The notes under the pieces are model-generated. The model saw only the letters and a program-made list of their open reading frames with translations, was not told the origin of the DNA and did no database searches. A stretch of 64,000 nt of DNA, taken from assembly GCA_022842325.1 (NCBI GenBank), contig JALHPU010000004.1, positions 1-64,000 of the forward strand, read 5' to 3'. The translations under genes were made by a program, and so were the position numbers. This document shows positions 61,743-64,000 of the stretch, piece after piece (the first letter of the stretch is position 1; each line of letters begins with the position of its first letter). Source of the DNA: Sulfuritalea sp. (GTDB taxonomy: Bacteria > Pseudomonadota > Gammaproteobacteria > Burkholderiales > Rhodocyclaceae).

Positions 61743-62927
61743 TTAGCCCGGCGCGCAGCTGCGAAAGCCGACGAAGATGTCGTCGCGCTGCGGCTCGTAG
61801 TAGTTGCGGTAACGCGGATTGCGCATGCGCGCGTGGGTGGCGAAGGAGCCGCCGCGCACGCTGCGGTGGCTGTGGAAAAACGGTGCGGCGTACTCGGCAT
61901 AGGGATCGGGACTGAAGCCCGGGTAGGGCGCGAAGGCGCTGGCCGTCCATTCCCAGACCTGGCTGCCCCAGTCGAAACCCTTGCCATGAAGCGCCGCATA
62001 TTCCCACTCCGCTTCGCTCGGCAGGCGGCGGCCGGCCCAGCGGCACCAGGCTTCGGCTTCATGCGCCGTGAGGTGGATCGCGGCCTGGTCGGGTGCCAGA
62101 TCGACCCAGTCGGCAAAGCGTCGTTGCTGCCAGCGGCCCGCTTCGCGGCGCCAGTAGCGCGGCATGGTTTGCCCGGTGCGTGCCAGCCAAGCCAGTCCGT
62201 CGGGCGACCACCAGTGCGCCTGGTGGTAGCCATCCGCCTCGACGAAGGCGAGGTAGTCCGAATTCCGGGTCGGTGTGGCGGCAATCGCGAATTCGGCGAC
62301 GCGTTGCCGATGGGCCCACTTCTCGTTGTCGAAGACAAAGCCCTTGCCCGCCGGCGAGCTGCCCATGAGGAACTCGCCGCCGTCGAGCGCGACGTCTGCG
62401 GCGGCAGGCAACCCGGCCAGTCCGTCGCGCGCCGGCCAGCCCAGGGTCTGTCGCGTGTAGCGAAAGGCTTCGGCGTGCATGTCCTCGTGGAACAGCGCGA
62501 GGCGGTGAAAGTAGAGCGCGGCATCGGTGTCCGGCAGCGTGCGCAGGGCTTCCAGCGCGGCCGCGAGCGTGTCATCCAGGTAGCGCCGGGTGCCGGCCCA
62601 GTCCGGCAGGTCGAGCCGCCAGCGGCTGCCATGCGGCACCTGGCGCGAGTCGTACCAGCGGTCGGCGTCGGCGAGGCGGGAGGGCAACGGCGCCGATGTC
62701 GCTCCCCGATAGCGCTGACACCAGTACTCCGTGAACCAGGCGACATGGCCAAGTTCCCACAGCGGCGGGTTGATGATGTCGAGGCAGGGCACATGCCGCG
62801 GGTCGGGTGCGGCGCCAGCCGGCCAGGCGGCCCAGTCGTCGAGCAGGCTGATCGTATAATCGCGTGCATCCTGCAGCGCCCCGGCGAGCGGGCTTTTCCC
62901 GGCAGTCCTCAGATCAGGCATGTCCAT
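61743..62927 (-). CDS. senA: Selenoneine synthase SenA-like (EgtB-type) enzyme
   Basis: The 394-residue protein has an N-terminal DinB-like domain with the three iron-binding histidines of the EgtB family (His61 in ELGHVAWF; His147 and His151 in HEDMHAE) and a C-terminal formylglycine-enzyme-like domain (RLPSEAEWEYAA, VRGGSFATHARMRNPRYRNYY). EgtB joins a sulfur donor to hercynine; SenA joins a selenosugar to hercynine. The adjacent senB-like and selD genes favour SenA. Start 62927 (MDMPDL) has AGGAG five bases upstream; 62921 is the alternative. It overlaps the divergent senB start by eight bases. Confidence 0.82.
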   Translation of the reverse strand: MDMPDLRTAGKSPLAGALQDARDYTISLLDDWAAWPAGAAPDPRHVPCLDIINPPLWELGHVAWFTEYWCQRYRGATSAPLPSRLADADRWYDSRQVPHGSRWRLDLPDWAGTRRYLDDTLAAALEALRTLPDTDAALYFHRLALFHEDMHAEAFRYTRQTLGWPARDGLAGLPAAADVALDGGEFLMGSSPAGKGFVFDNEKWAHRQRVAEFAIAATPTRNSDYLAFVEADGYHQAHWWSPDGLAWLARTGQTMPRYWRREAGRWQQRRFADWVDLAPDQAAIHLTAHEAEAWCRWAGRRLPSEAEWEYAALHGKGFDWGSQVWEWTASAFAPYPGFSPDPYAEYAAPFFHSHRSVRGGSFATHARMRNPRYRNYYEPQRDDIFVGFRSCAPG

Positions 62928-63888
62928 TCCATCTCCTCCCTCCGTCGCCATTATCAGCCCGGCATTGGCCAGTGCCAATAACGGCAACTGGCATACCGCG
63001 CGGCGCTGGGCGCATTGCCTGGCGTCGCGGGTGCAGGTGCGGATCGAACAGGAGTGGCGTGGCGCCAGCGCCGACTTTCTGATTGCGCTGCATGCCCGCC
63101 GCTCGGCGCCGTCGATCGCGGCCTTCGCCGAGCGCCATCCCGATCGTCCGCTGGTGGTGGTGCTGACCGGGACCGATCTCTATCGCGACATCGCCACCGA
63201 TGCCGCGGCGCAGCGATCGCTGGCGCTGGCCAGCCGGCTGGTGGTGCTGCAGGCGGAAGGCCTGCGGGCCTTGCCGTCCGGGTATGCGGCGAAGACCACG
63301 GTGATCTACCAGTCGGCGCGCCCCCTGCTGCCGGGGCGGCACAGCCGGCGCCATTTCGACCTGGCGCTGATCGGCCACATGCGCCCCGAGAAGGATCCGC
63401 TGACCGCATTGCGCGCGCTGCGCCTGTTGCCGGCCGATCTGCCGGTGCGGCTGTTCCATATCGGCGGCGAGCTCGATCCGGCACTGGCCGCCGAGGTGCG
63501 CGCCCTGGGCGCGGCCGACTCGCGCTATTGCTGGCTGGGGCCGCTGTCGCAGGCGGAAACGCGCCAGCGCCTGAAGCGCTGCCACCTGCTGCTGCTGCCT
63601 TCGCTGATGGAGGGCGGCGCCAACGTGCTGATCGAGGCGGTGACCAGCGGCGTTCCGGTGCTGGGCAGCGACATTGCCGGAAATCGCGGCATGCTCGGCG
63701 CGGACTATCCCGGCTGGTTTGCGGCGGGCGACGCAGAAGGCCTGGCCGGACTGATCCGCCGCGCCGCGAGCGATCCTGATTACTACGCGAGCCTGTCCCG
63801 CCGTTGCGCGGAGCGGGTATCCTTGTTCTCCCCGGCGCAGGAATGCGCCGCCGTTTGCAGTCTTCTTGAATTGACAAGACAACCATGA
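62920..63888 (+). CDS. senB: Selenosugar synthase SenB-like glycosyltransferase
   Basis: The 322-residue GT-B glycosyltransferase matches the family I recall as TIGR04348: [26 protein letters not shown] at the start, [34 protein letters not shown] and [35 protein letters not shown] near the end. SenB forms a carbon-selenium bond between UDP-N-acetylglucosamine and selenophosphate. ATG 62920 is the only start keeping the first beta strand; it overlaps senA. The end overlaps the selD-like gene by ATGA. A repeat-like word at 63057 encodes part of the N-terminal domain. Confidence 0.85.
63057..63080 (+). repeat. REP-A copy inside senB
   Basis: GCGTGGCGCCAGCGCCGACT followed by TTCT. It encodes RGASADFL in the first Rossmann-like domain. 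Confidence 0.4.
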
Positions 63889-64000
63889 ATTCCCCCAACA
63901 CCCCCGTTGCTCCGGTCCGCTTGACCTCATTCAGTCATGGTGGCGGCTGCGGCTGCAAGGTAGCCCCCGGCCTGCTCTCCGAAATCCTGCGCGGCGTGCG
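63885..64000 (+). CDS. selD: Selenide, water dikinase (SelD/SenC), N-terminal fragment
   Basis: The first 38 codons are present before the window ends. They read [20 protein letters not shown], then [18 protein letters not shown], matching SelD, where the first cysteine of GCGCK is the catalytic Cys/Sec position and the Lys is also essential. Here the position is Cys, so the enzyme itself needs no selenocysteine. It makes selenophosphate from selenide and ATP. The four-base overlap with senB implies coupled translation, supporting a SenC role; it may also serve selenoprotein or tRNA pathways. Confidence 0.88.

Follow-up and report, generated by a model that had tools for sequence, protein, structure and literature searches.

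The end of this stretch of Sulfuritalea sp. DNA raises the question of whether its last genes encode a selenoneine pathway, and of where the hercynine for such a pathway would come from. The window, meaning the whole 64,000-base stretch analysed, comprises bases 1–64,000 of contig C4 (176,203 bases) in a 4.89 Mb genome of 121 contigs, estimated to be 99.94% complete with 5.15% contamination. Despite this contamination estimate, the sen genes and egtD were all found on the single 176-kb contig. A preliminary description had proposed a senA-senB-selD/senC trio; all three genes were found where it had placed them and passed curated models (Table 1). The selenoneine-type identity that it had assigned was borne out by curated models, PDB matches, the SenA tree and 15 of 15 SenA-type alignment columns. 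All four genes, egtD included, scored above curated model cut-offs, which supports this identity, and we consider it highly probable (about 0.95) that they constitute a complete Variovorax-type selenoneine cluster in a Sulfuritalea-like betaproteobacterium. The gene set is an ordinary one; less ordinary is the tight back-to-back packing of two gene starts. Among genomes of the same genus, senA, senB, senC and egtD occurred together in all three sampled.

Table 1. Features of the sen cluster. Positions are those of the window; the prefix C4 marks positions on the contig.
Feature	Position	Strand	Remarks
senA, selenoneine synthase	61743–62927	−	394 aa; ATG 62927, stop 61743
senA alternative start	ATG 62921	−	direct sequence check
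senB, Se-glycosyltransferase (selenosugar synthase)	62920–63888	+	322 aa
senC/selD, selenophosphate synthetase	63885 to C4:64949	+	354 aa; first 116 bases inside the window
egtD	C4:64739–65926	−	next gene after senC; outside the window
predicted senA promoter	62950–62978	−	TTGGCA (62978–62973), 17-base spacer, GATAAT (62955–62950); in senB codons 11–20
Shine-Dalgarno-like GGAGGGAGGAG	62933–62943	−	ahead of senA, read directly
candidate senB −10 TATAAT	62855–62860	+	senA codons 23–25 (Asp-Tyr-Thr); perfect −10

Comparisons were made across 109 senB loci, all annotated by one script: the window cluster (L008), 28 loci from a family search and the best 80 of 578 confirmed places. This sample is biased towards relatives of the window, and two loci (L073 and L074) are repeats of L061 and L062. 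In the family search, the SenB cut-off was passed in 29 of 150 sampled genomes. Among the matches listed, the six closest named rows were MAGs with SenB identities of 74–85%, labelled Rhodocyclales, Rhodocyclaceae (two), Sulfuritalea (two) and Burkholderiaceae.

The glycosyltransferase had been described as SenB-type, and this assignment stands: the protein scored 412.5 bits on the SenB model TIGR04348 of NCBIfam (cut-off 300, E = 9e-124), and its best PDB match was V. paradoxus SenB (8fbx, E = 3e-78), followed by another Se-glycosyltransferase. PMC10891094 lists as important the catalytic K158, the sugar-site residues N20, T23 and E231, and also E239, H58, T83 and T85. In our 15-row alignment (A1), K158, E231, E239, R155, H58, T83 and T85 were invariant, as were N23 and T26 in window numbering, the equivalents of SenB N20 and T23. 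An EGGAHV motif is also named for SenB in PMC10891094; here it reads EGGANV, with Asn at position 235. The last-but-one letter was Asn in 56 and His in 39 of the 109 loci (best 80 of 578 included), so EGGAHV is not family-wide and the difference does not count against membership. Asn235 was accordingly rejected as a special trait, being the commonest letter in this sample.

For senC, the SelD model NF002098 gave 537 bits (cut-off 299, E = 1e-161), and the GCGCK site noted in the preliminary description is intact. The egtD product passed TIGR03438 with 364 bits (cut-off 290.9), and a PF10017 profile search of the whole genome returned a single EgtD match, the neighbour of senC. EgtD had correctly been placed outside the window, its gene's low end lying 739 bases beyond it, but the apparent lack of hercynine supply was an effect of the window edge, egtD being the next gene. 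The search for egtD and further egtB copies proposed at that stage, when run, yielded this one egtD. No protein of the genome passed the EgtB cut-off: SenA scored highest, at 222 bits, and the other sub-threshold matches were frames of 712 aa on C10 and 344 aa on C5, so a separate EgtB was rejected. The egtD frame extends about 69 codons beyond the family model, antisense into senC (C4:64739–64949). In six relatives (L060, L061, L062, L065, L072 and L075) egtD ends close to the senC stop, from 17 bases inside it to 5 bases past it; the long 3′ end would reflect either a genuine loss of the stop codon or an assembly error.

SenA reached 513.2 bits on the NCBIfam model NF041186 (cut-off 420, E = 5e-154) and 231 bits on the EgtB model TIGR03440, under its cut-off of 360. 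Its best PDB match was V. paradoxus SenA (8ryz/8k5i, E = 4e-100, 339 bits), with further matches to OvsA (212 bits) and EgtB (163 bits). The three-His iron site of an EgtB-like enzyme, noted earlier, was present: H61, H147 and H151 stand at iron-ligand positions, in columns conserved across SenA and EgtB rows, and by analogy with EgtB we take them to be the iron ligands.

The SenA tree held 93 rows (80 proteins encoded beside senB, 10 further copies and 3 known proteins) and was built by a quick method with long branches flagged and matches shorter than 1000 bases left out. The window row fell on the SenA side, within a 12-row Sulfuritalea/Rhodocyclaceae group (SH-aLRT 100), and a branch with SH-aLRT 96 parted the SenA side from MthEgtB and nine of the ten further copies. 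Clustering of SenA with true EgtB enzymes, named in the preliminary description as evidence that would speak against it, was therefore not what the tree gave. Seven of the nine EgtB-like copies have egtD within the examined stretch. The tenth further copy (L143) and OvsA stood among SenA, on long branches flagged as unsure. Fifteen alignment columns separated 81 SenA rows, the window included, from 10 EgtB rows, and the window protein carries the SenA letter in all of them.

Two cysteines of SenA, C295 and C391, both belonging to these 15 columns, were near-invariant (81/81 and 79/80 SenA rows) and also occur in OvsA, while the EgtB rows and L143 have Ala at these positions. C295 and C391 may matter for selenium handling.

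The cluster might make another selenometabolite, for example an ovoselenol-like one, with SenA acting on a histidine derivative other than hercynine. In the tree OvsA joins the SenA rows by a long branch, and it has the SenA letter in 13 of the 15 columns, so placement on the SenA side does not by itself fix the acceptor. We nevertheless regard this alternative as very improbable: SenA matched the SenA structure with 339 bits against 212 for OvsA, the equivalog cut-off was passed, and egtD, the sole EgtD match in the genome, adjoins the cluster, which points to hercynine as the acceptor. That SenA is an ergothioneine sulfoxide synthase (EgtB) lying beside a glycosyltransferase gene and selD by chance is likewise very improbable, for although the two enzymes share a superfamily and the histidine pattern, hercynine is the substrate of EgtB too and SenA still scores 231 bits on the EgtB model, it stays below that cut-off and above its own, is distinct in tree placement and in all 15 columns, and elsewhere a separate EgtB-like copy stands beside egtD near a sen cluster (e.g. 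L078, L132, L121 and L150).

As a selenoneine cluster, the genes would act as their homologues do in published work. SenC would convert selenide and ATP to selenophosphate; SenB would use selenophosphate and a UDP-sugar, with subsequent phosphate removal, to give a selenosugar; EgtD would trimethylate histidine to hercynine; and SenA, as a non-haem iron enzyme, would join selenosugar and hercynine to a selenoxide, which would break down to selenoneine. The sen cluster of Variovorax paradoxus DSM 30034 was reportedly described by Kayrouz et al. in 2022 (Nature). The Sulfuritalea cluster resembles it in SenA, SenB, SenC and the published SenB catalytic residues and differs at SenB position 235, with Asn instead of His; in the Sulfuritalea cluster egtD lies directly beside senC. 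Features of the V. paradoxus cluster follow PMC9814287, PMC10702425 and PMC10891094; PMC11929427, PMC11448449 and PMC10903977 were consulted as well.

The unusual arrangement in which novelty had initially been seen did not hold up. A divergent senA stood beside senB in 85 of the 109 loci (best 80 of 578 included), once at a distance of 2.2 kb, so the layout is standard and the cluster of an already known type; layout was rejected as a novelty. Within these 85 loci, again partly from the best 80 of 578, a SelD-type gene followed senB in 70 and egtD lay within the examined stretch in 33. The other 24 of the 109 (same sample with the best 80 of 578) had no senA on that side, partly through contig ends.

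Three loci had senB without an adjacent senA and a gene for a TehB-like SAM methyltransferase immediately beside it (L053:5248–5997, L056:6461–7543 and L058:5492–6127), making these loci candidates for a route to a Se-methylated selenosugar. A conserved neighbourhood for one senA-less type of senB was considered and rejected, as the scanned genes of L064 (lpxD, lpxB and an lpxA-like gene of lipid A, RNase HII and an rRNA methylase) have no evident selenium link.

The selenophosphate made by SenC is probably used beyond selenoneine. The genome also has SelA, a SelB-domain frame and tRNA-Sec close together on C7, and SelU on C6. Two proteins passed the SelD cut-off of TIGR00476, SenC and a 757-aa frame on C25 (C25:4435–6705). 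The latter is an oxidoreductase-SelD fusion, with 519 bits on TIGR03169 (cut-off 310) over residues 11–382 and 287 bits on TIGR00476 over residues 414–720, and it passed neither NF002098 nor TIGR04369. As senC is thus the only stand-alone SelD gene over the cut-off in a genome with SelA, SelB, tRNA-Sec and SelU, genome content suggests that senC probably supplies three pathways (selenoneine, selenocysteine and selenouridine), with the C25 fusion as a caveat. In three genomes of the same genus (G001, G069 and G117) and one of the same family (G038), senC was the sole SelD over the TIGR00476 cut-off and SelA was present in all four; hence senC probably also serves selenoproteins.

SelD-type genes of other forms were also encountered. 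In five family members (L045, L046, L047, L050 and L051) the SelD-type gene after senB lies in a frame of 757–762 aa, which in L045, the one scanned, is an oxidoreductase-SelD fusion; a separate SelD occurs elsewhere in four of the five. SelD matches with one in-frame TGA (G066:C21:4570–5496 and G114:C137:5445–6371) possibly contain selenocysteine; a SelA match was found in G114 and none in G066.

The senC start overlaps the senB stop as ATGA (63885). The coding sequences of senA and senB, in head-to-head orientation, share 8 bases at their starts, or 2 if senA starts at 62921. Model starts of senA and senB were 1–7 bases apart in the Sulfuritalea group, and outside it they were separated by −6 to 159 bases, apart from a single gap of 2248 (best 80 of 578 included). 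The predicted senA promoter was the sole site reported by a scan of 62500–63400, with 10 of 12 matches (shuffles averaged 0.1), and it occupied the same place in every one of the 12 Sulfuritalea-group rows, two of them being duplicate records. Across 84 close divergent loci (some from the best 80 of 578), the best site had at least 9 of 12 matches in 37, and 36 of these 37 lay within senB model codons 4–7. The candidate senB −10 has no −35 match and was not reported by the scan of 62500–63400.

Within the Sulfuritalea group, synonymous change over the first 25 codons of senB was 0.293, against 0.437 for the whole gene (permutation p ~0.001), and 4 of 288 windows were as low. Neither senA nor senC showed such a dip at its 5′ end in this group; their windows of low synonymous change lie elsewhere in the genes. 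RNA structure in the overlap region was dismissed, being weaker than in 180 of 200 shuffles.

Codon use at the senA −10 was counted, with repeats removed and every row covered, in 82 loci with a close divergent senA and 25 without, which include loci from the best 80 of 578, as do all counts in this paragraph and the next that extend beyond the Sulfuritalea group. The first hexamer codon, where it encoded Ile (63 codons), was ATT in 39, ATC in 23 and ATA in 1, against 68, 150 and 11 in the following senB stretch (Fisher p = 1e-5, a value that ignores relatedness, for motifs chosen after sequence inspection). When the next residue was also Ile, the pair was ATT ATC in 33 of 34 loci and never ATC ATC; when it was not, the first codon was ATT in 6 of 29. 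Ile followed the first hexamer codon in 40 of the 82 loci with a divergent senA and in 1 of the 25 lacking one. Loci lacking it had ATT in 1 of 20 and showed no Ile-Ile pair. The ATTATC hexamer itself occurred in 33/82 loci with a divergent senA and in 0/24 lacking it. On the senB tree, the link between ATTATC and divergent senA never ran the other way, with only six well-supported independent pairs and a sign test that was not significant.

On the senA side, TATAAT, likewise a motif chosen after sequence inspection, occurred within codons 5–45 in 8 of the 10 members of the group, in 19 of the 72 loci outside it, and in 0 of 80 other 40-codon senA stretches of the group. An Asp/Asn/His-Tyr pair at the TATAAT place had both codons ending in T (xAT TAT) in 20 of 20 loci, labelled Rhodocyclaceae/Sterolibacteriaceae, Gallionellaceae and Oxalobacteraceae; nearby senA codons used as a control ended in T in 134 of 278.

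If both sites are promoters, transcription would start near 62943 (−) and 62867 (+), assuming 7 bases past each −10, and the mRNAs would be complementary over about 77 nt spanning both start codons. From these sequence patterns we tentatively propose, as a possibility that we rate below even odds, that the promoters of senA and senBC face each other, each lying within the first codons of the partner gene, and that an antisense lock ties selenosugar supply (SenB and SenC) to its consumer SenA. In several betaproteobacterial families, nucleotide-level selection on the −10 elements would then have influenced codon choice and perhaps put Ile in place of Val at one position of SenB. PMC4179725 describes an overlapping 5′ UTR class of cis-antisense regulation in Listeria (its Figure 1D), in which divergent mRNAs are complementary at their 5′ ends, as predicted here; here, by comparison, each promoter is predicted to lie within the coding part of the other gene, and the overlap would span both start codons. 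The excludon is a wider relative of this arrangement. Among the literature matches listed (SenB structure papers and reviews), no title concerned sen gene regulation.

Beyond an ordinary cluster, the shared SelD and the nested gene starts add modest interest. A Sulfuritalea-like lineage with selenocysteine machinery and SelU is shown here to carry a pathway dedicated to a selenium metabolite as well. With the sole stand-alone selD inside the selenoneine cluster, the sharing of selenophosphate among three uses becomes testable, and the nested promoters, if true, would offer a compact means of matching the production of a reactive intermediate to its consumption.
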